Of a DNA stretch of 23,324 nt, positions 2,695-21,059 are shown piece after piece. This DNA comes from a virus: positions 1-23,324 of IMG/VR virus record IMGVR_UViG_3300048916_000238; one strand, given 5' to 3'. The stretch's first letter is position 1. The number at the start of each line of letters is the position of its first letter. A model generated the notes under the pieces. That model saw only the letters and a program-made list of their open reading frames with translations, ran no database searches and had not been told where the DNA came from. The translations under genes and the position numbers were made by a program.

Positions 2695-2765
2695 CTCCAC
2701 CGTTGAATGGCACGGACTCCTGACTGGCCAGTCGGAGTCGCCGGGTTCGAGTCCCGGGGTGGAGG
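2695..2765 (+). ncRNA. tRNA-like element 2 with long hairpin in place of anticodon arm
   Basis: A perfect 7-bp acceptor, CTCCACC (2695-2701) with GGTGGAG (2758-2764), and a perfect T-arm, CCGGG-TTCGAGT-CCCGG (2741-2757), joined directly as in tRNA. The 39-nt interior forms a long interrupted hairpin, GACTCC-T-GACTGG/CCAGTC-GGAGTC (2715-2739), not D and anticodon arms. Overall length (71 nt) is tRNA-sized. With no 7-nt loop carrying U33 it should not decode. Known RNAs with this layout (acceptor plus T-arm plus long helix) include the tRNA-like domain of tmRNA. Confidence 0.5.
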
Positions 2766-2768
2766 CGA

Positions 2769-2809: not shown

Positions 2810-3424
2810 GTGCGCAAGATCCTGGCCGCCAGTACGGCGGCCGTGCTCACGCTGACAGGCTGTGGAACCGACTTCTGGGGCAACCCGACGCCGGAACCCA
2901 GCGACGACGGAAGCGAGTGTGTGGCGGGCCCCGTGGCTCCGCCGCCACCGTTCGACCCCGCTGCCCAGGAGCGCCCGAGCGGCGTCACCCCGGGCAACTC
3001 GTGGATCGTCTTCGAGCTTGAGGTGCGGGCGCTAAGCCCGGCCGGCTCGAACGACTACTGCGTGCCGATCGCTGTCCACGTCTACACCCGCTCGGGTGAG
3101 GCGGACGCTGTCGCCCTCGACAGCAAGGGCATGGTGGCGGGGCCGTTCGACCTCCGGACCACGACCCCGTGGACGGGCCGCTACGTCGCCCTCCAGTACA
3201 ACCCGACCGACGAGCGGTTTGCCGGTCGGCCCCCGGCGTACGAGGTTCACCTCGACGCCACCTACCTCGCTGATCGGGACACGCTCAACGAGGTGGCGCC
3301 GAGGGCGCTGCGCTGCGCGATCAAGTTGCGTGGCGCCACCGTGGCCACCGACCTCGCGGTGGTCGCCGCGCGTAGCAATGTGCGGTGCGAGTTGAGGGGC
3401 AGCGACGCCTGGATTCACGGCTAG
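2810..3424 (+). CDS. Predicted lipoprotein of unknown function
   Basis: 204 residues. The GTG start is preceded by GGGAG with six nucleotides between. A short positively charged N-terminus, a hydrophobic segment and the lipobox LTGC (residues 15-18) predict a lipoprotein attached to the outer face of the cytoplasmic membrane. The mature N-terminus is Pro/Asp-rich, then the remainder appears beta-rich, with several Cys residues. No catalytic motif is recognised. Phage lipoproteins often block superinfection or DNA entry; that is inference from class and accessory position only. It ends in TAG. The frame after this stop stays open for 38 codons across the next tRNA-like element and closes with a TGA overlapping the ATG at 3538. 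Confidence 0.85.
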   Translation: MRKILAASTAAVLTLTGCGTDFWGNPTPEPSDDGSECVAGPVAPPPPFDPAAQERPSGVTPGNSWIVFELEVRALSPAGSNDYCVPIAVHVYTRSGEADAVALDSKGMVAGPFDLRTTTPWTGRYVALQYNPTDERFAGRPPAYEVHLDATYLADRDTLNEVAPRALRCAIKLRGATVATDLAVVAARSNVRCELRGSDAWIHG

Positions 3425-3537: not shown

Positions 3538-3747
3538 ATGAAGACCAAGACCAACGAGCGTTGCGCGCGAAGCGGCCAGGGTGCCCGGGTCATCGACGGC
3601 CGCACCGGCCACCTCGTGATCCTGGAGACCGTCAACCGGGCGTGCATGGGATGCGGGAACGTCCTGCCGGTCACCACGAACGCCTTCGGGCTGGCCCGCT
3701 GGCCCGAGCACAGCAAGAGCACCGGGTCCTGGCTGGACGAGGTGTAG
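3538..3747 (+). CDS. Small cysteine-containing protein, unknown function
   Basis: 69 residues, basic and compact. It starts at ATG after GAAGGGAGC. Cysteines near residue 9 and in CMGCGN (about 36-41) could form a small zinc site, but the usual four-ligand spacing is not obvious. Not recognised. It is flanked on both sides by a tRNA-like element plus a TACCGG hairpin. It ends in TAG; beyond the stop the frame is open for 47 codons and closes with a TGA whose A is the first base of the next ATG (3891). Confidence 0.75.
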   Translation: MKTKTNERCARSGQGARVIDGRTGHLVILETVNRACMGCGNVLPVTTNAFGLARWPEHSKSTGSWLDEV

Positions 3748-3775: not shown

Positions 3776-3847
3776 GGGCACGTAGCTCAAGGGCAGAGCA
3801 CCGGCACGACTTGCCGGTAGATGCAGGTTCGAGTCCTGCCGGTCCAC
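3776..3847 (+). ncRNA. tRNA-like element 4, cloverleaf-like but non-decoding
   Basis: Normal-looking TA at positions 8-9, D-arm GCTC-AAGGGCA-GAGC, and T-arm GCAGG-TTCGAGT-CCTGC (3823-3839). The acceptor is poor: GGGCACG against CGGTCCA gives about four pairs. The anticodon arm is an over-paired hairpin, ACCGGCA-CGACT-TGCCGGT (seven pairs, five-nt loop); forced into a 7-nt loop it would read ACGACTT, with C instead of U at position 33. A tRNA finder might call it Val(GAC) or a pseudo-tRNA. Either a decayed tRNA or a member of the non-decoding series in this island. Confidence 0.5.
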
Positions 3848-3890: not shown

Positions 3891-4409
3891 ATGAGCGACA
3901 AGTACCTCACCGGGCTGGTGCAGGACATCTTCACCCGCTACGGCGTCACCGAGGCCAGCATCGCCGCCCTGCCGACCATCGTGGCAGACCTCGCGTACCT
4001 GGTGGAGCGCGTCTCCACCGAGACCACCGAGATGGCGATTGCCAACCTCACCGACCCGGCCTGCCCGGCCTCGATCGTGAAGGACCGCACCTACAACCTC
4101 ATGATCGGGTTCACCGAGTCGGACCGCGCGAGCGGCTACGTCTCGTTCTGTGACGGCTACCGCGAGGGCGCCACGCAGCGCCTGGTCCTGCTCACCGTCC
4201 GGTCGGCCCGCACGTACGACGGTCCCGAGGTGGCCGAGGCGACCTTCGTCGCCACCAACCACCCCGAGCCGCACACCCTGGGCGGGCTGGCCGGCACCAT
4301 CGCCAAGGCGATGGACGGCAAGTGGGTGCGCTCGCTGTCGGTGGGCGACACGGTGGACGTCAACGGCACCAACTGGGCGTGCAGCCGCGCTGGCTGGGTC
4401 CAGGTCTAG
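3891..4409 (+). CDS. Hypothetical phage protein, 172 residues
   Basis: Unrecognised soluble protein with no membrane segment. The start at ATG 3891 is set by GGAG seven nucleotides upstream. The N-terminal third is helical (LTGLVQDIFTRYGV and following), the middle is mixed, and the C-terminus ends in a small beta-rich segment (RSLSVGDTVDVNG then NWACSRAGW) of a type common at the ends of small actinophage proteins. The stop is TAG, and the 39 codons after it contain no stop and lead in the same frame straight into the ATG of the gene at 4527. Confidence 0.85.
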   Translation: MSDKYLTGLVQDIFTRYGVTEASIAALPTIVADLAYLVERVSTETTEMAIANLTDPACPASIVKDRTYNLMIGFTESDRASGYVSFCDGYREGATQRLVLLTVRSARTYDGPEVAEATFVATNHPEPHTLGGLAGTIAKAMDGKWVRSLSVGDTVDVNGTNWACSRAGWVQV

Positions 4410-4415
4410 CAAGTC

Positions 4416-4485
4416 AGGCCAGTTGGAGACGGGTGTCTCCGCCCCCCGCGAGGGGGAGGGCCGGGTTCGAGTCCCGGCTGGCCAC
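4416..4485 (+). ncRNA. tRNA-like element 5 with tetraloop hairpins
   Basis: Acceptor AGGCCAG (4416-4422) with CTGGCCA (4478-4484) gives six of seven pairs. The T-arm CCGGG-TTCGAGT-CCCGG (4461-4477) is perfect. Between them are two clean hairpins: GGAGAC-GGGT-GTCTCC (4425-4440), where the D-arm belongs, and CCCCC-GCGA-GGGGG (4443-4456), a GNRA tetraloop where the anticodon arm belongs. A GNRA-capped stem cannot decode, so this is a tRNA mimic rather than a translating tRNA. Confidence 0.5.
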
Positions 4486-4526: not shown

Positions 4527-4718
4527 ATGAAGATCACCGTCACCCTCGACGTGGACGTGAACGTGGACGACTGGCAGGCCGAGTACCACCTGAACAGTTC
4601 CATCGAGACGCTCCAGGACATCCTGCGCGACCTGCGCACGGCCGGCCACTACCTGACCTCGGAAAGGTACGCGGGCCTCGTCGAGGTCAAGCAAGCCCAG
4701 GCGACGATCATCCTGTGA
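4527..4718 (+). CDS. Small acidic protein, unknown function
   Basis: 63 residues: an N-terminal beta strand (KITVTLDVDVNVDDW) followed by helices. It starts at ATG after GAAGGGAGCACAGCC and ends in TGA two nucleotides before a strong terminator, so it closes the first plus-strand transcription unit. It is in the same frame as the gene upstream (3891-4409), separated only by a TAG and an open linker. No function is recognised. Confidence 0.75.
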   Translation: MKITVTLDVDVNVDDWQAEYHLNSSIETLQDILRDLRTAGHYLTSERYAGLVEVKQAQATIIL

Positions 4719-4768: not shown

Positions 4769-4781
4769 TCCGCAGGGCAAG

Positions 4782-4853
4782 TGGCGGATGCCGGAGCCGA
4801 ACCGGCGACCTCAGGGTTATGAGCCCCGCGCGCTACCACTGCGCCAATCCGCT
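4782..4853 (-). tRNA. tRNA-Met (CAU), initiator-like features
   Basis: Complete cloverleaf of 72 nt on the strand opposite to its neighbours. Acceptor AGCGGAT/ATCCGCC, D-arm GCGC-AGTGGTA-GCGC, anticodon arm CGGGG-CTCATAA-CCCTG, variable loop AGGTC, T-arm GCCGG-TTCGGCT-CCGGC, discriminator A, no encoded CCA. The anticodon is CAU. Position 1:72 is an A-C mismatch and three consecutive G-C pairs close the anticodon stem; both are hallmarks of initiator tRNA, though the D-arm looks more elongator-like. CAU could also belong to an isoleucine tRNA modified to lysidine. Confidence 0.9.
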
Positions 4854-5934: not shown

Positions 5935-6333
5935 ATGGCCCCACCGACCACCGCCACCCCCGACGAGACGTACGTGCGCTGGCCCCGGGCCGGCGGGTTC
6001 GTCCGGGAGATGCTCTACGACACGGTCGACGCGTACGTCGAGGCCGACCGTCACGCCCGCTGGTGGAACGTGCAGTGGGCGCGGGCGGCCCTCACCGAGG
6101 AATGGCGGGCCACCGAGGCCCGCCCGTTCGACGCCTCCATGTGGGCCGTCACGTACAAGCCGTTCGGCTACGTCGAGCGGTGGCGCTACCTCATCGAGGT
6201 CAACGCCTCCATCCAGGTCGGCGACCACGTCGTCGACATGAACTACGGCCTGTCGAGCGAGACGCGCTGGACCGCGATGCGCCTGTGGGGCGACCTGATC
6301 GGGGGGGCGACGGTCCGGCTGGTGGTGCACTGA
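5935..6333 (+). CDS. Hypothetical phage protein, 132 residues
   Basis: ATG start with GGAG seven nucleotides upstream; that GGAG can pair with an upstream CTCC. The protein is Trp- and Tyr-rich (YVRWPRAGG, RWWNVQWARAAL, YVERWRYLIEVN) and probably a compact alpha/beta fold. No catalytic or binding motif is recognised. Its TGA overlaps the next ATG (TGATG), so the two are translationally coupled. Confidence 0.8.
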   Translation: MAPPTTATPDETYVRWPRAGGFVREMLYDTVDAYVEADRHARWWNVQWARAALTEEWRATEARPFDASMWAVTYKPFGYVERWRYLIEVNASIQVGDHVVDMNYGLSSETRWTAMRLWGDLIGGATVRLVVH

Positions 6334-6590
6334 TGCCCCACGAGCCTACGGCGGCGTGCGAGCAGGACCACTGCGCCTGGCACAACGAGGACGAGCCGGC
6401 CACGGGCGTGGCCGATGGCGTGCTGTGCCACGAGTGCCTGCACTGGTACCCGACCGAGGCGGCCCTCATCGAGGCCCACGCCGACCGCCTGGCGGCCGAC
6501 GTGGTGCCCTCGGTGGACAGGGCGTTCCTCATCGCCAACACGCGGGTGGAGGACATCCACTCGTGCCCGCTCTGCTCACACGACTTCTAG
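6333..6590 (+). CDS. Small putative zinc-binding protein
   Basis: 85 residues, acidic. Two CxxC pairs, CHECLHW (about 31-37) and CPLC at the C-terminus, plus Cys/His near the start (CEQDHCAWH), resemble the ligand pairs of a treble-clef or zinc-ribbon fold. Coupled to the preceding gene by TGATG. It ends in TAG. Probably a nucleic-acid or protein adaptor; no closer assignment is possible from sequence. Confidence 0.75.
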   Translation: MPHEPTAACEQDHCAWHNEDEPATGVADGVLCHECLHWYPTEAALIEAHADRLAADVVPSVDRAFLIANTRVEDIHSCPLCSHDF

Positions 6591-7131: not shown

Positions 7132-7342
7132 GACCGGCGCGGCGCCCTGGGCCCGGTTCGTGGACCGGCTCCACGACGAGCGGGTCAAGGCCGGGCTCAC
7201 CCAGGAGGACGTGGCCGATTGGATGGGCACCACCCAGAGCGCGGTCTCCGAGTGGGAGGCCGGCCGCACCCACCCCGGGGTTGGGTTCATCGACCGGTGG
7301 GCCAGCCTGTTCGGCCTGCACCTCGACTTCATGGAGGACTGA
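7124..7342 (+). CDS. XRE-family helix-turn-helix regulator
   Basis: 72 residues. A Cro/CI-type helix-turn-helix occupies residues about 12-65; the core GLTQEDVADWMGTTQSAVSE carries the usual TQEDVA and QSAVSEWE positions, followed by a short C-terminal helix. A small DNA-binding repressor or activator, probably acting as a dimer on island or phage promoters. The GTG start at 7124 overlaps the upstream stop, so expression would be coupled; there is no clear Shine-Dalgarno sequence. Followed 12 nt after its TGA by the suppressor-type tRNA. Confidence 0.85.
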   Translation: MGRTGAAPWARFVDRLHDERVKAGLTQEDVADWMGTTQSAVSEWEAGRTHPGVGFIDRWASLFGLHLDFMED

Positions 7343-7354
7343 GGAACCTCCCCC

Positions 7355-7426
7355 GGCCACGTAGCTCAACGGCAGAGCAGGCGCCTCTAAAGCGCACGGT
7401 TGCGGGTTCGAGTCCCGTCGTGGCCC
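7355..7426 (+). tRNA. tRNA with anticodon CUA (amber suppressor type)
   Basis: Fully canonical cloverleaf. Acceptor GGCCACG/CGTGGCC, TA at 8-9, D-arm GCTC-AACGGCA-GAGC, anticodon arm GGCGC-CTCTAAA-GCGCA (four pairs plus a G-A at the base), five-base variable loop, T-arm GCGGG-TTCGAGT-CCCGT, discriminator C, no encoded CCA. The loop has C32, U33 and A37, and bases 34-36 are CUA, which reads the stop codon UAG. The charged amino acid cannot be told by eye; discriminator C73 is unusual in bacteria outside tRNA-His. TAG stops are common in this island. Confidence 0.88.
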
Positions 7427-7604
7427 CTCGGAACGATGGCGTCAAGCGGCTGCCCGGGAAAGGGGACGATCCAGCCGTAAGGTCAGGCCGCATCGCCGAC
7501 TGGCTACGGCGGGTGCGGAAGGGTCTTTCACCCCGGGTTCCTTTCTGGCCCTGGAGCTTGGCCTGCGTCAGCGGGGGCCTCCCGTCCCGTGCGGCTCATA
7601 GGGA
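7427..7604 (+). other. Non-coding, hairpin-rich stretch after the suppressor tRNA
   Basis: No credible gene. Contains CGCCG/CGGCG (about 7493-7510), GGGTG/CACCC (about 7511-7533) and a long stem, GCGGGGGCCTCCC with GGGAGGCTCCCCGC (about 7571-7613), around a 17-nt loop. Together with the following tRNA-like pieces it makes about 500 nt of structured RNA up to the terminator. No known RNA family is recognised, and conserved group I intron core sequences were not found. Confidence 0.4.
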
Positions 7605-7766
7605 GGCTCCCCGCAACCCCTGTCGTGATACGGTAGACACGCGGTTGGCACGGAGAGGCTGCGCAGCGCTCCGGACTCTGGGCCAACCGCGTCACGGCCC
7701 TCAGGTGTAACCAGAGCACGCGCCCCTTCGGGGGGCGAAGGCGAGGTGCGATTCCTCGGGGGGCCC
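7605..7766 (+). ncRNA. Oversized tRNA-Leu-like element
   Basis: Pieces of a class II tRNA are present. The D-arm-like GTG-ATACGGTAGA-CAC (7625-7640) resembles tRNA-Leu, a UUCG-capped GCCCC/GGGGC arm (about 7721-7736) could be the long variable arm, and the T-arm-like CGAGG-TGCGATT-CCTCG (7742-7758) has G at loop position 55. Where the anticodon arm belongs there is a long stem, CGCGGTTGGC (7640-7649) with GCCAACCGCG (7682-7691), enclosing further pairing. A possible acceptor is GGCTCCC (7605-7611) with GGGGGCC (7759-7765). Total size of about 160 nt is twice a tRNA. Boundaries are uncertain. Confidence 0.35.
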
Positions 7767-7807
7767 CACAACTCCAGAGGTGCCCGGTGCGTAGGGCACG
7801 GTTACTT

Positions 7808-7888
7808 CATTTAATCGGCAGGTCGCGGGTTCGAATCCCGCCACGCTCCCCTCGGGGAGTGGGTAGCTCAGCCCGGTAGAGCAGCCGA
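7808..7888 (+). tRNA. Possible circularly permuted tRNA-Lys(UUU): 3' half before 5' half
   Basis: 7815-7849 is a perfect tRNA 3' half: anticodon-stem strand TCGGC, variable loop AGGTC, T-arm GCGGG-TTCGAAT-CCCGC, acceptor strand CACGCTC. 7857-7888 is a tRNA 5' half: GAGTGGG, TA, D-arm GCTC-AGCCCGGTA-GAGC, A, GCCGA. Across the eight-base linker they fit each other: GCCGA/TCGGC is 5 of 5 and GAGTGGG/CACGCTC is 6 of 7. TTTAA before TCGGC supplies UUU plus A37-A38. Position 33 is not U in any simple joining. The alternative is two decayed tandem copies of one tRNA. Confidence 0.4.
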
Positions 7889-7934
7889 ACAGGCACCGAG
7901 TCCGTCTTTGAACTCGGGCACCACTGGACAGGAA

Positions 7935-7970
7935 ACGGCCCCGAGCGTGAAGCTCGGGGCCGTTTTCGTT
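7935..7970. terminator. Bidirectional intrinsic terminator between convergent blocks
   Basis: A 12-bp perfect stem, ACGGCCCCGAGC/GCTCGGGGCCGT, around GTGAA, followed on the plus strand by TTTCGTT and on the minus strand by TTTCC. It sits exactly where the plus-strand island meets the minus-strand virion block, so it should stop both transcripts. Confidence 0.85.
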
Positions 7971-9153: not shown

Positions 9154-10047
9154 CTAGCTGTCCTCGGCCAACTCGGCGCCCTGCCGGGCCGCCTCCACCA
9201 GCGTCTCCATCGACGGGCCCGAACCGCCGCCGCCGGTGCCGGCCGGGATCGCGCCGATGACGGCCTGCACCGCCTGCGGAGAGGTGTCACCCCACGACAG
9301 GATCTCGGCACGCGGGTCGCCGTAGAACAGCTTGATCGCACCCAGCAGGTTCTTGGCGCTCGACTCGTCCGGGATCTCGCGGTGGTAGATGCCGTCACCG
9401 GCCCACCAGCGGCTGTGCTCGGTCGTCTCGCCGTTCGGGCCCGCACCCGACTTCGCCACCATCAGCATGTCGTCTCCCACCCTCCGTTGCGGCTCGCCCA
9501 CCACGAGCTTCATGAACACGTCCCACGGGAACTCGGGCCCCATGTCCGTATGGTTGCCGCCATCCTCCGGGAAGGCGTCCGTCACAGCCCAGTGGTCGCA
9601 GATGCCGCCCGGGCCGTCCTCGTAGTAGGCCGCCCTCACCTCGTCGACCGTCATCAGCCGCAAGGGAAGACGGATCGTGTCGCACACCCACCGGGCCGCC
9701 CCGGCGGCGTTGACCAGCGTCGGGTAGGACACCTCGTCGAGCCAGCCGGCGCGGCTCTGCACCGTGTCGCAGGTCTCGATGTGGACGCCGATCTCGTTGC
9801 CGTGGAAGTAGGCGCTGTGCGAGCGGTCGCCGAGCGGAACCTCCTGGAGCGGGGCGCCCAGGCTGTCGGCGAAGATGTGGCACGAGGTGCCGTCGGTGCG
9901 GCGCTTGTCGTAGGCGACGCCATCCTCGGCGGCCAGCGGGCCTGCGTAGCCGGCCGTGTAGTGGATGACGCACAGCTTGGGGGCTCGCGCGCGCCCGGGC
10001 GTGTACGACTTGGGGTAGCCGGCCCAGATGGGCGCTATACCAGCCAT
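9154..10047 (-). CDS. Endolysin: N-acetylmuramoyl-L-alanine amidase (Amidase_2)
   Basis: 297 residues. It cleaves the amide bond between N-acetylmuramic acid and L-Ala in peptidoglycan at lysis. The Amidase_2/PGRP-type domain spans about 20-180: LCVIHYTAG (metal ligand His29), an HIETCD strand, GICDHWAVTD (His152) and NHTDMGPEFPW (His166, with the usual H-x-D-x-GP-x-FPW pattern). After a linker, the C-terminal about 100 residues have no recognised wall-binding domain; the end is Gly/Ser-rich, then a helix. ATG start overlapping the previous gene. It ends in TAG; read-through would add about 16 mostly hydrophobic residues. No holin is certain nearby. Confidence 0.92.
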   Translation of the reverse strand: MAGIAPIWAGYPKSYTPGRARAPKLCVIHYTAGYAGPLAAEDGVAYDKRRTDGTSCHIFADSLGAPLQEVPLGDRSHSAYFHGNEIGVHIETCDTVQSRAGWLDEVSYPTLVNAAGAARWVCDTIRLPLRLMTVDEVRAAYYEDGPGGICDHWAVTDAFPEDGGNHTDMGPEFPWDVFMKLVVGEPQRRVGDDMLMVAKSGAGPNGETTEHSRWWAGDGIYHREIPDESSAKNLLGAIKLFYGDPRAEILSWGDTSPQAVQAVIGAIPAGTGGGGSGPSMETLVEAARQGAELAEDS

Positions 10048-10205
10048 CGGTTGTCCAGCGGTCCGGGCCGGCGGTTGTCCTCCGGGTGACCGATGTTCGG
10101 CGCGGGCGCCGCGTCCGGGTCGACCACAACCTCGTTGGAGGGCGGCTCACCCCGGTCCGGGAACCGCTCGGCCACGGTCTCCTCGGTGCGCTCTGTCGGG
10201 CCCAT
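10035..10205 (-). CDS. Small Pro-rich acidic protein upstream of the endolysin
   Basis: 56 residues, Pro/Glu/Asp-rich, probably disordered. The frame runs from ATG 10205 to a TAG at 10035 that overlaps the endolysin ATG. The ribosome binding site before ATG 10205 is poor; an in-frame GTG at 10175, after GAGGAG, is another start. Support comes from the end overlapping the endolysin start, as with most genes in this block. No function is recognised. Confidence 0.55.
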   Translation of the reverse strand: MGPTERTEETVAERFPDRGEPPSNEVVVDPDAAPAPNIGHPEDNRRPGPLDNRWLV

Positions 10206-10214
10206 GTCGACAGA

Positions 10215-10481
10215 CTAGCTGGGCGGCTCCAGCTTGGCGAGCCTGTCCAGGGCCTCAACCAGGGCGGCGGCGACGTGCATCGGCGGCCACTTGTTCATCA
10301 GCCCGATGACGTAGGCGGTGTTGACGGCGGCGAGCCCCCGGCTGGCCCGGGCGGTGCGGTAGGCGGCGAGCAGCGCATCCAGGTCGGTGGACGCGGCAGC
10401 ACGGACCTGGTCATGTTCGGCCAGGTCCGCAGGGGTGTGGGTTCCGTGCATGAGTCGCATGGCGGGCAGGTCGTGCTCCAC
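10215..10481 (-). CDS. Hypothetical protein, 88 residues
   Basis: Helical, with a central segment DLDALLAAYRTARASRG and a C-terminal helix ending ALDRLAKLEPPS. The start is uncertain: GTG 10481 has a weak GAAG upstream; an ATG 24 nt downstream is an alternative. It ends in TAG. The 61-nt gap before it holds two palindromes, GTGCATGCAC and GAACGTTC. No family recognised. Confidence 0.7.
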   Translation of the reverse strand: MEHDLPAMRLMHGTHTPADLAEHDQVRAAASTDLDALLAAYRTARASRGLAAVNTAYVIGLMNKWPPMHVAAALVEALDRLAKLEPPS

Positions 10482-15106: not shown

Positions 15107-15204
15107 CAGCGCAGCACTCCCGTCAGGCAGGCGGCGGCCAGCAGGTAGAGCAGCACGGCCATGACCCACAGCGCGCGCCCCAGGTCCCGTCCCAGGTTGC
15201 CCAT
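15106..15204 (-). CDS. 32-residue single-pass membrane protein
   Basis: ATG and stop both overlap neighbours by TGATG, which supports reality despite the length. GRALWVMAVLLYLLAAACL is one transmembrane helix with a basic N-terminal flank. Directly follows the TET/JBP-like gene. Function unknown. Confidence 0.6.
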   Translation of the reverse strand: MGNLGRDLGRALWVMAVLLYLLAAACLTGVLR

Positions 15205-16085
15205 CAGCGCTTCGCCCACCACTCGGCGGCGCGGCGAGCCTCGGTGTCGGCGTCGGCGCAGCCCACCATCGCCGTACGGAAGTACGACACGACCGAGATG
15301 CGCTCCGCCCCGCACGTCTCGCACAGCCCGAACAGGGTGTTTCCGCAGCCACAGACGATGTCGGTGTTGGCGTGCCACTCATGGGCGTCCATGAGCAGCA
15401 GGTCGCCGTTGCCCATCGAGACGGCCACCCGGTACTCGGGGAACAGCAGGTTCCCGCCCGTGAACGAGCCGCCCCGGCGGAGCACGGCCAGGGTGGAGAA
15501 GCCCGCATCCAGGTCGCCCTTGTCCGTGTGCATCCCGGTTGGGTAGGTGTTGTTGACGGTGACGGTGGTGAACGGGGTGCCGGGCACGACCCATTCGGGG
15601 CGGGTGGCGATGACCTCGCGCATCTGTGCGCGGTGGCGTTCGGGTACGTGGGCGGCCATCTGGTCGGCGATGGCGGCGAGGAACGGCTGGAGGGTCTCCC
15701 ACCTGGGGAGGTTGCGGCCGGTCCAGGCGGTGAGGCGGCAGTAGCGGCGGTAGCTGTTCGGGTCGAACGCTCCGATGATGGTGCTGCTGGTGGTGGGTGC
15801 GTAGCGCTTGCCGGAGGGGGATTTGGCGATGCCGCCGCCGCTGGACATGCCCCGGTTGTTGGTGGTGTGAGTCCGCAATTCGTGCAGGATGCCGTAGATG
15901 GTGTCGTTGTTGGCCCATTCGTCCAGTACGTGGGGAAGGTAGACGCAGAGGGGTTTGCCGTCGGGCTTGAGGACCTTGGCGGGGCCGGTGAGGAGCACGT
16001 CGTAGTCGGCTGGGCCGAGCACCTTGCCTTGCTTGGGTTCCAGGTGTTCGGCGGCGAGGCGGGTGCGTAGCCGTAGCTCGATCAT
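15204..16085 (-). CDS. TET/JBP-family 2-oxoglutarate/Fe(II) DNA base dioxygenase
   Basis: 293 residues. The family oxidises the methyl group of thymine or 5-methylcytosine in DNA to hydroxymethyl (or further), using Fe(II), O2 and 2-oxoglutarate. TVTVNNTYPTGMHTDKGD supplies the HxD pair (His186, Asp188); GNLLFPEYRVAV, then GDLLLMDAHEWHANTD, supplies the distal His (235 or 238); ERISVVSYFR the Arg that holds 2-oxoglutarate. The HTDKGD and MDxHEWHxN strings are strikingly JBP-like, favouring thymine, though phage members acting on 5-methylcytosine are known. Between the distal His and the Arg is an insertion with four cysteines (VCGCGN, GLCETCGA). ATG overlaps the previous stop. It lies in one operon with a P-loop kinase, an FAD enzyme and a pyrophosphorylase-like protein. 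Confidence 0.88.
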   Translation of the reverse strand: MIELRLRTRLAAEHLEPKQGKVLGPADYDVLLTGPAKVLKPDGKPLCVYLPHVLDEWANNDTIYGILHELRTHTTNNRGMSSGGGIAKSPSGKRYAPTTSSTIIGAFDPNSYRRYCRLTAWTGRNLPRWETLQPFLAAIADQMAAHVPERHRAQMREVIATRPEWVVPGTPFTTVTVNNTYPTGMHTDKGDLDAGFSTLAVLRRGGSFTGGNLLFPEYRVAVSMGNGDLLLMDAHEWHANTDIVCGCGNTLFGLCETCGAERISVVSYFRTAMVGCADADTEARRAAEWWAKR

Positions 16086-18060: not shown

Positions 18061-18953
18061 TGGGCCACCTCCTCCACGAGACTGGGCGCCCAGCGGACGC
18101 CGGAATGCCACAGGGCCGGGTAGATGATCTGGTTTTCGGTGCGGATGATGCGTCCCTCCGAGCCGGTGTGGGGTTTGGGGCGCCATCCCTGGAGGATCTC
18201 CGGGTCCGTCCCAACGATCTTGACGCCCGGGAACAGGGTGGCGAAGTCTGTGCGCCAGCGCAGGTAGGCGTCCTGCAACTGAAGCTCGCTCCGGGTGTAC
18301 GGGTAACGCTCGTTGACCAGCGACGAGCCGGCCCACCAGAGGCCAGGCTCGGCGGCCACCGGGTAGGCGTAGGTGAGGGCGAACCGGTGGACCTTCCCGT
18401 AGAGGGCGATCCGCTTGCTGTCGTACGGGTCGGTCACGCCGAGGGGGAAGCGGAGGAAGACGCGCCGGCTCCAGCCCCACACGGTGCCGTTGGTGGTGAG
18501 CGCGTTGGGCCGGGCCACCACCACGGGCACGTCCTGCGGGACGTGCCCGATGCGGTAGGGCTCGAAGATGCGGCGGGCGACCTCGACCACGCGCTGGACG
18601 TTGACGGCCACGCCCATGGCGGCCGACACCTTGAGGCCAGGTACGCCCGGGGCGGCGGTGAACGGATGCTTGCCGTCGTGGGGTGGGCGCTTGTGGGTCC
18701 AGGCCCACTGGGCCAGGCAGGCGTAGTCGGTGACCTCAGGCCCCAAGGGGCCGTCGCCGTTGAGCACCCAGCGAATCCAGGAGGCCCGCTCCTGCTCGCT
18801 GCGCACATCGCCGGACGGGTAGACGAACCCGGTCGACGCCCGCCACGCCTGGTACGCCGACTCGGTGTCATCCCAGGTGAACTCGATGCCCTCACGGGCC
18901 AGGGCAAAGGCGGTCATCGCCCCAAACCAGCCCATACCGTTAACGTGGATCAA
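18027..18953 (-). CDS. FAD-dependent oxidoreductase (DAO-like), probable base-tailoring enzyme
   Basis: 308 residues. TTG start with GGAG six nucleotides upstream. The N-terminus is a dinucleotide-binding fold: IHVNGMGWFGAMTAFALA (Gly6, Gly8, Gly11) and an acidic strand end (FTWDDTE). GLWWAGSSL (204-212) and IIYPALWHSGVRWAP (276-290) recall the substrate and FAD-tail regions of D-amino-acid-oxidase-like enzymes. In phages such enzymes occur in thymine hypermodification loci, where they are thought to oxidise or cleave the amine attached to the base. Overlaps the kinase by 34 nt and the pyrophosphorylase-like gene by 14, implying coordinated synthesis. The FAD fold is fairly sure; the substrate is inference. 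Confidence 0.75.
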   Translation of the reverse strand: MIHVNGMGWFGAMTAFALAREGIEFTWDDTESAYQAWRASTGFVYPSGDVRSEQERASWIRWVLNGDGPLGPEVTDYACLAQWAWTHKRPPHDGKHPFTAAPGVPGLKVSAAMGVAVNVQRVVEVARRIFEPYRIGHVPQDVPVVVARPNALTTNGTVWGWSRRVFLRFPLGVTDPYDSKRIALYGKVHRFALTYAYPVAAEPGLWWAGSSLVNERYPYTRSELQLQDAYLRWRTDFATLFPGVKIVGTDPEILQGWRPKPHTGSEGRIIRTENQIIYPALWHSGVRWAPSLVEEVAQWARMRTLLST

Positions 18954-19872
18954 TGATCTCTCCGGTCTCGCGGTAGACGCGGCGGCGGGCCTTGTCCACG
19001 TCGTAGGGCCAGCGGAACGGGAACAGCACGGCCCCGGCGGCGCTGGCCCGCAGGAGCAGCACGCCCTCCTCGGTCCGGTCGGCCCCGTCCACTGAGTCGA
19101 TGCCGATGGCCTTCATGGCGCGGCGCAACTGGCCGCCCATCTGGTCGATGTCGTGGCCCACGTAGTAGCGGCCGGCGGCCAGCGAGTGGAAGTCACACAG
19201 GGTGGTCTCGGTGGTGGGTTGGGTAGCGAGCAGGTCACGGCGCCACAACTCGTCCACGAGCAGCCCCGACACGGCGTTGAGCCGGCGCACGGCGGCGGCG
19301 CTGTGGCCGTAGGGCAGCGGCCCCCGGAACAGCAGGGCCAGGCCGGCACGCGGGCCGGAGGAGTGGGCGTGGCCCATGTCGGTCGGGGCAAGCTCGGGCC
19401 GGCCGAAGACGGACGCGAGAAGCTCGCACGTCTTGTAGGCGGCCCAGCGGCCGTTGCCCCAGATGGACAGGGCCTTGCCGAACAGGTCACCGTAGCCAGA
19501 TGCGCTTGTCACAAATCGGTCTAGGCCCTCATGGTGGGTGTCCAGCGCCACCAGGGCCTCAAGGTGGCGCTTGAGCACGCGCGGGTCACGGTGGCCCCGG
19601 CGCTCGGTGCCGCACGGCAGGGTCAGCAACTCGGGCACCCACTGGCCGGCCAGCATCAGCGACGCGGCCCGCAGGGCCGAGCCGAGGTCGTAGTAGGCGA
19701 CGTGCAGGAAGCACATCCACGCCAGGCTGTGCGGAGGGTAGTTGCGGCCGAGGCGGCGCAGCACCGGGTAAACCGGGTCCACGTCGCCGGTGGCGGTGGC
19801 AAGGTCGTGGAACCGGGCGTAGTCGTCGATCAGCCCCGGCTGCCAGACGGTCTGGCCGTGGGTGAGCCTCAC
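18940..19872 (-). CDS. Alpha-glutamyl/putrescinyl-thymine pyrophosphorylase-like (amino acid:DNA transferase)
   Basis: 310 residues. GTG start overlapping the upstream stop; TAA stop. All-helical, with AWMCFLHVAYYDLGSALRAA, a possible HhH-like GKALSIWGNGRWAAYKTCEL (132-151), a His/Gly-rich TDMGHAHSSGPRAG (164-177) and TTLCDFHSLAAGRYYVGHDI (223-242). These features, and above all the neighbours, suggest the DNA-glycosylase-fold group that replaces the pyrophosphate on activated 5-hydroxymethyluracil with an amine such as putrescine or an amino acid. The sequence is divergent, so a profile search is needed before the family is accepted; otherwise it is a conserved unknown of the modification operon. 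Confidence 0.6.
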   Translation of the reverse strand: MRLTHGQTVWQPGLIDDYARFHDLATATGDVDPVYPVLRRLGRNYPPHSLAWMCFLHVAYYDLGSALRAASLMLAGQWVPELLTLPCGTERRGHRDPRVLKRHLEALVALDTHHEGLDRFVTSASGYGDLFGKALSIWGNGRWAAYKTCELLASVFGRPELAPTDMGHAHSSGPRAGLALLFRGPLPYGHSAAAVRRLNAVSGLLVDELWRRDLLATQPTTETTLCDFHSLAAGRYYVGHDIDQMGGQLRRAMKAIGIDSVDGADRTEEGVLLLRASAAGAVLFPFRWPYDVDKARRRVYRETGEIIDPR

Positions 19873-20054: not shown

Positions 20055-20346
20055 CTCCGGCCTCCAGGATCTCGCAGGCGGCCTCGAACCCGTTGAGGTG
20101 CTCCTGGGTGATCATCGAACCGGGCCGGCCGTACTGGGCCTTGAGCCGCTCGAACTCGCCGCGCAGGACGGTGATGGCGGGGCGGGCGGCCTCGCGTCCC
20201 CACAGCGGAACGCACTCCCAGTGCAGGTGGTGAACGCCACTCAAGGCCCTACCGATGTCGGGCGCCTCGGCCGGGGCAGCCGCGAGCAGGTAGGCCACCT
20301 CGTCGATGCGCTTCTTGCAGCGGTCGCAGGAGGTCTGGACGCTCAC
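20047..20346 (-). CDS. Hypothetical protein with CxxC motif, 99 residues
   Basis: GTG start overlapping the ParB-like stop (GTGA). SCDRCKKRIDEVAYLLAA begins with a CxxC knuckle; WECVPLWGREAA supplies a third Cys. The C-terminal half is helical (LRGEFERLKAQYGRPG, FEAACEILEAGDE). Possibly a small zinc-binding adaptor. Unknown function. Confidence 0.78.
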   Translation of the reverse strand: MSVQTSCDRCKKRIDEVAYLLAAAPAEAPDIGRALSGVHHLHWECVPLWGREAARPAITVLRGEFERLKAQYGRPGSMITQEHLNGFEAACEILEAGDE

Positions 20347-21059
20347 GCCGCGCCATCCACAGCCCGGGCAACGGCGGCGTAGACCAGTTCGCCGTTGGTC
20401 AACTGGTCGCCCCACTTGACCCGCAGCACCTGCAGCCAGTTGACCAACTGCTCCTTCTTGTCGGTGGTCAGGACGAGGATGACTTCTTCCAGCCCCTGCG
20501 CCTTCATCGGCTGGTAGTTGGCGACGTTGTCGGCGTGCTGGGCCCGCTCCTCGTCGCTGCCCGAGTAGTGGGCGTCGGTGGCCGCGTTGTAGACCAGCGC
20601 CTCCTGCCCGGCCAGGGCCTGCAACGTCTCCAGGTCGTCGATGGTGTAGCCGGTGCCGCCCAGGTCGTCCAGCGACTCCAGCAGCGCGATCAGCGCGGCG
20701 TCGTCGTAGGTGCCGAGGTCGGCGGTGCGGTTGTCGACGGCCAGGATGCGGCGCTCCGCCTCGGGGGTGAGGCCGTGAAGGAACACGACCTGGATCTGGC
20801 CCCAGCCGAGGTAGCGGGCAGCCATGAGGGTGTGGTTGCCGGCCAGGACGTAGTTGGTCTCGCCCGAGACGATGAGCGGCCGGTACTGGCCGGTGGTCTC
20901 CAGCGACTCGGCGATGGCGGCCATGTTGCCCCGGCGCGGGTTGTCCGGATGGACCTCGATCACGTCGATTGCAACGGTCTCGACCTTCAGGTCGTGGCCC
21001 ACCTTGCCGGTCTGGATGTCCTTGCCCACGCTGTCCTCCACCTCATAGAAGTCGGTCAT
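20343..21059 (-). CDS. ParB-like nuclease/partition-domain protein
   Basis: 238 residues. ATG overlapping the upstream TGA (ATGA). The N-terminal ParB fold shows VHPDNPRRGNMAAIAESLET (36-55), GQYRPLIVSGETNYVLAGNH (57-76) and TLMAARYLGW. The C-terminal part (AERRILAVDNRTADLGTYDD) matches phage ParB-like proteins that accompany DNA-modifying enzymes. ParB folds bind CTP or DNA or act as nucleases; no chromosome-partition partner (ParA) is seen, so a role in DNA modification, packaging or host DNA processing is more likely. Confidence 0.85.
   Translation of the reverse strand: MTDFYEVEDSVGKDIQTGKVGHDLKVETVAIDVIEVHPDNPRRGNMAAIAESLETTGQYRPLIVSGETNYVLAGNHTLMAARYLGWGQIQVVFLHGLTPEAERRILAVDNRTADLGTYDDAALIALLESLDDLGGTGYTIDDLETLQALAGQEALVYNAATDAHYSGSDEERAQHADNVANYQPMKAQGLEEVILVLTTDKKEQLVNWLQVLRVKWGDQLTNGELVYAAVARAVDGAA

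Follow-up and report, generated by a model that had tools for sequence, protein, structure and literature searches.

A CUA tRNA gene in the RNA-rich island of a phage that keeps UAG as a stop codon

We analysed a stretch of 23,324 bases from an IMG/VR virus record (hereafter the window); a megablast search of 50,697 phage records found nothing that matched it. The window carries a tRNA gene with the anticodon CUA, followed on its 3' side by a tRNA-like RNA, then a Y RNA-like element and then a terminator-like hairpin (Table 1). ARAGORN called the gene at 7355-7427 (+) with the anticodon cta; the program labels any CUA tRNA 'Pyl', so the label is uninformative on pyrrolysine. The match of Rfam RF00005 to 7355-7426 scores 62.6 bits (cut-off 29; E 1.2e-11), which rules out a chance origin. 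The window copy has both the cloverleaf above the curated score and the conserved tertiary nucleotides of RF00005 members, and the cloverleaf is its minimum-energy fold and its centroid alike. The molecule is laid out as GGCCACG-UA-GCUC-AACGGCA-GAGC-A-GGCGC-CUCUAAA-GCGCA-CGGUU-GCGGG-UUCGAGU-CCCGU-CGUGGCC-C73. The preliminary description spoke of a complete cloverleaf. All four arms and all the tertiary positions (U8/A14, A15/U48, G18G19, T loop UUCGA, U33) are indeed in place and the acceptor, D and T stems are perfectly paired, but pair 27:43 is a G.A mismatch that leaves a 4-bp anticodon stem, the discriminator is an unusual C73, and CCA is not encoded; nor is G-1. Both programs bear out the anticodon and the loop C-U-CUA-A-A that had been described. 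CUA is the hallmark of amber suppressor tRNAs, and the earlier expectation that the molecule should read UAG holds at the level of the anticodon (CUA within CUCUAAA). The gene is a real tRNA gene whose anticodon should pair with UAG.

Table 1. Positions of the features discussed in the text
Feature	Position	Strand	Basis or remark
tRNA-like element	2695..2766	+	G003 counterpart is a 45-nt hairpin, acceptor and T arm only
TAG stop of gene 2810-3424	3422..3424	+	
Other forward TAG stops	end at 3747, 4409, 5728, 6590, 7131	+	
tRNA-like element, loop ACGACUU (C33)	3776..3846	+	G003 counterpart with 5-nt loop
tRNA-like element: acceptor and T arm, non-tRNA hairpins between	4417..4485	+	ARAGORN, fold
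Small HTH repressor-like gene (frame open from 7124)	7160..7342	+	Ends 12 nt upstream of CUA tRNA
CUA tRNA gene	7355..7426	+	ARAGORN, Rfam RF00005, sequence layout, fold
tRNA-like RNA, ARAGORN 'Arg-tcg'	7696..7767	+	Short hairpin loop closes anticodon arm; very similar in G003
Y RNA-like (YrlA) element, permuted T arm and D arm	7790..7930	+	Outer ends by eye
Terminator-like hairpin and T run, end of RNA island	7935..7970	+	By eye; counterpart in G003
Endolysin TAG stop (gene 9154-10047)	9154..9156	-	Followed by 16-codon open stretch resembling G003
TET/JBP oxygenase, amino acid:DNA transferase, ParB-like genes	15204-16085, 18940-19872, 20343-21059	-	

The host is probably an actinobacterium, in agreement with the earlier assignment to the actinophages, as all 307 phage record matches of the endolysin have Propionibacterium/Cutibacterium/Mycobacterium-type hosts. 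The terminase gives no host because its prophage matches are only 34-39% identical and mostly from Rhizobiales. The TET/JBP oxygenase, amino acid:DNA transferase and ParB-like genes suggest that the phage DNA is hypermodified. A terminase search found 12 viral contigs. The closest long relative, G003 (60.9 kb, terminase 76% identical), is probably complete because its ends repeat over about 131 bp, and judged by G003 the genome of the window phage would be about 60 kb. Among the close relatives found, G003 alone has a CUA tRNA. Both genomes have the gene in this RNA-rich island, but on different sides of the Y RNA-like element: the gene follows the element in G003 and precedes it in the window. 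No CUA tRNA was detected in the more distant relatives G005 and G010, and the remaining terminase relatives are mostly short fragments; the CUA tRNA is known in just two members of this phage lineage. Searches with the Y RNA, leader and Arg-like element patterns returned G003 again and no further relatives, and gene 6333-6590 as query matched one short contig over 24 residues. In bacteria, an exact, narrow pattern of the same tRNA core was found in 0 of 84,980 species.

The presence of a CUA tRNA could mean that UAG has been reassigned to an amino acid (code 15 or similar), a reading that we virtually discount. Code 11 fits better than TAG-as-sense in both genomes (window, 2535 vs 2298; G003, 6648 vs 6220), and coding density drops in both when TAG is read as sense, which places them outside code 15. 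TAG ends 11/51 genes in the window and 15/104 in G003 (14-22%), as counted with a simple custom codon-model caller, not Prodigal, and after exclusion of a spurious forward call at 718-882 inside the terminase. Among orthologues with aligned C-termini, both members end in TAG in four pairs, and in two others one ends in TAG and the other in TGA. The phage keeps UAG as an ordinary stop and retains the standard code.

The preliminary description also noted a cluster of TAG-terminated genes in the same island. The raw count in the window supports this (6/12 forward-strand genes vs 5/39 others, P 0.013), but the difference is not significant once overlapping genes, whose stop lies over the next start, are set aside (6/9 vs 3/9, P 0.35). 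In G003 the corresponding count is 5/7 vs 7/45 (P 0.005), and no such cluster is present in G005 or G010, both without a detected CUA tRNA; all of these counts are too small to build on.

The tRNA might instead serve specific TAG-ended phage genes through programmed read-through, which we consider very improbable. Examples are the endolysin with its 16-codon extension, the gene pair 10215-10481/10035-10205, and 3891-4409, which would continue into 4527-4718. The endolysin extension and the pair at 10035-10481 are the two strongest candidates. In both the window and G003 the two genes of this pair share a frame across TAG, and the frame of a TAG-ended gene extends across a tRNA-like element and joins the same following gene. 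The endolysin extension equals that of G003 at 39/48 bases, but its end is not conserved, and its nine substitutions (3/2/4 by codon position) are too few to decide whether it is coding. At the gene pair, six bases separate TAGTCT from a start codon downstream (window, 10205-10217 (-); G003, 15701-15715), an arrangement that resembles a leaderless promoter, and this TAG stop may double as the -10 box. In-frame continuation into the next gene is found after 5/17 TAG stops vs 9/36 TGA or TAA stops (P 0.75), there is no enrichment of back-up stops within five codons past TAG, and no read-through target is prominent. Together with the better fit of code 11 and the exchange of TAG with TGA, the continuation counts leave the earlier link of the tRNA to recoding or to TAG-ended genes unsupported.

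The scaffold of the molecule is tRNA-Trp-like. Its best cultured matches are actinophage tRNA-Trp(CCA) genes, one anticodon base from CUA. Those of Mycobacterium phage Steamy and Streptomyces phage Salutena share the scaffold (79-81% over the matched part) and the loop CUCYAAA, whereas the window tRNA has CUA, another acceptor stem and C73 (G73 in Steamy). C73 is present in both the window and the G003 copies, and the other CUA tRNAs that we found have A, U or G. Among bacterial tRNAs, C73 is normal for tRNA-His only, and it is a poor fit to bacterial synthetases except HisRS. C73 and the missing G-1 would argue against charging of the window tRNA. The E. coli amber suppressor su7 (trpT) is reportedly a tRNA-Trp with a C35 to U change that gives CUA, and is said to be charged mostly with Gln by GlnRS. 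The window tRNA likewise has CUA on a tRNA-Trp-like scaffold, but su7 takes Gln through an enzyme, GlnRS, that is absent from most actinobacteria. To our knowledge, no host tRNA of the CUA type is to be expected. Decoding of UAG by the window tRNA, with a putative charging step, appears plausible.

We think it probable that the window encodes a real phage tRNA, with CUA on a tRNA-Trp-like scaffold, that acts in leaky UAG suppression in a standard-code genome. Low-level suppression without recoding is the most likely function, and an uncharged tRNA mimic is its main rival. We propose that the small HTH gene and the tRNA are co-transcribed within an operon of small genes and RNAs, and that the tRNA would then be processed. 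If a host synthetase charges it, the tRNA would compete with RF1 and an amino acid would be inserted at a fraction of UAG codons. The likeliest benefits would be restored translation past accidental amber mutations or a general interference with termination.

The mimic explanation, which we regard as unlikely, holds that the molecule goes through tRNA folding and processing but stays uncharged, so that its anticodon matters little. It could be a decoy for RNases, modification enzymes or a host Y RNA/Ro partner, or a processing site. The neighbourhood lends itself to this idea. The elements at 2695-2766, 3776-3846, 4417-4485 and 7696-7767 keep the acceptor stem and T arm but have lost the decoding loop, and that at 3776-3846 is not credible as a decoder. 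A strict scan for an acceptor stem plus T arm found three in the window, including the CUA tRNA, and none in 20 shuffles. The T-arm/D-arm module of the Y RNA-like element matches the YrlA Y RNA family RF02553 at E 1.7e-5 (39 bits at 7817-7888, below the 69-bit gathering score), and its core is near-identical in G003. At the end of the island, a terminator scan gave just a partial hairpin on the opposite strand. C73 and the degenerate G003 copy would also suit a mimic. However, the window tRNA has every canonical tertiary position and keeps the CUA loop and U33 exactly, unlike the loops of the mimics. In this island a tRNA shape is common and a kept anticodon loop is uncommon. In both genomes the tRNA-like neighbours have lost that loop, so keeping a tRNA shape does not by itself explain why CUA is retained.

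The comparison with G003 bears on how the gene has been maintained. The 15-nt anticodon arm, GCGCCUCUAAAGCGC, is identical in the two CUA tRNAs, and 27:43 is unpaired in both. Provided that the two tRNAs are orthologous, their acceptor and D stems differ by five both-sided compensatory changes, compared with 0-1 in slid controls. The G003 copy is without the U8/A14 and 15:48 pairings, does not reach the Rfam cut-off, and takes a shape other than the cloverleaf in its minimum-energy fold. In a tree of CUA tRNAs, which is weak because it is built on about 70 bases, the G003 copy groups with L052 (support 0.93) and the window copy with L046 and a tRNA-Trp. This split would mean either divergence with compensatory changes or two acquisitions in one island, and either history would point to selection on the CUA loop.

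Another explanation for the 27:43 mismatch, C73 and the degraded G003 copy is that a tRNA-Trp gene changed from C35 to U by chance, has no function today and is in decay. This is very improbable in view of the perfect acceptor, D and T stems, in which the two genomes differ on both sides of pairs, and of the anticodon arm that the two copies share. A more unusual possibility, of which we are quite doubtful, is that the lineage keeps, and maybe acquired twice, a C73 amber tRNA among mimics, and that this tRNA either receives its amino acid from an unexpected host enzyme or, uncharged, serves as an RF1 competitor or decoy. If true, this would be a translation-interference function that is so far undescribed.

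Pattern scans found CUA tRNAs in viral contigs of 34-71% GC, and in several contigs of 57-71% GC the standard code fits better. It scored better in 10/11 sampled CUA-bearing contigs besides the window and G003; in the exception, G016, TAG-as-sense scored higher and coding density was not raised. Among the best matches listed for cultured actinophages in a similarity search, which was no census, none was annotated as a CUA tRNA, and most were tRNA-Trp or tRNA-Lys. The Xanthomonas jumbo phage XacN1, with 56 tRNA genes in a 384.7-kb genome, has two CUA tRNAs with no target found, and in silico amber read-through of XacN1 gave no extra similarities (PMC5852040). The window tRNA differs from those of XacN1 in having C73, in the tRNA mimics and the Y RNA-like element that accompany it, and in the size of its phage, about 60 kb. 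The amber suppressor tRNAs of code-15 phages, the crAss-like phages among them, have the same anticodon (PMC11210395, PMC9523058, PMC10879173), but the window genome is not recoded. Theta ribozymes adjoin many of the code-15 suppressor tRNAs (PMC10879173), and an Rfam scan of the window gave no ribozyme beside the CUA tRNA. Suppressor tRNAs do occur in gut recoders, to which the preliminary description chiefly assigned them, but they are not confined there, as the high-GC standard-code contigs and XacN1 show.

The window tRNA is a further case of a known, unexplained phage habit and not a new genetic code. This is interesting because phage suppressor tRNAs are usually taken as tools for stop recoding, and here, as in XacN1, one is retained without recoding. 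It raises the testable question of what use an amber tRNA is to a phage in which UAG is still a stop. The tRNA mimics beside it offer natural controls for finding out which of its parts are important.

Several other RNA elements were seen. The tRNA-like set at 1708-1834, 2695-2766, 3776-3846, 4417-4485 and 7696-7767 has counterparts in G003, with the arms other than the acceptor and T arms replaced or lost. Several of these elements lie just 5' of genes, and after them come CCACGA, a TACCGG hairpin and AAGGGAG, which resembles a Shine-Dalgarno sequence. The elements of the set may be leader elements or sites of processing by RNase P/tRNase Z. A long leader RNA (window, 1708-1834; G003, 23598-23717) has a strongly conserved core, GGCTTCGGCAGCAGGTTGCAGCCGCACAGATACGTCAG, and a T arm at its end. 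At 4781-4853 (-) the window has a tRNA-Met with the initiator features of a GGG/CCC anticodon stem and an A1.C72 mismatch, and with G58 in the T loop. In contig G009, TAG-ended genes run in frame into the next gene in 6/9 cases and TGA-ended genes in 1/18 (gene ends, L036-L038; not corrected for multiple comparisons). The same contig has a class II tRNA-like element with the five-base loop GCTAA at 42007-42101 (-).
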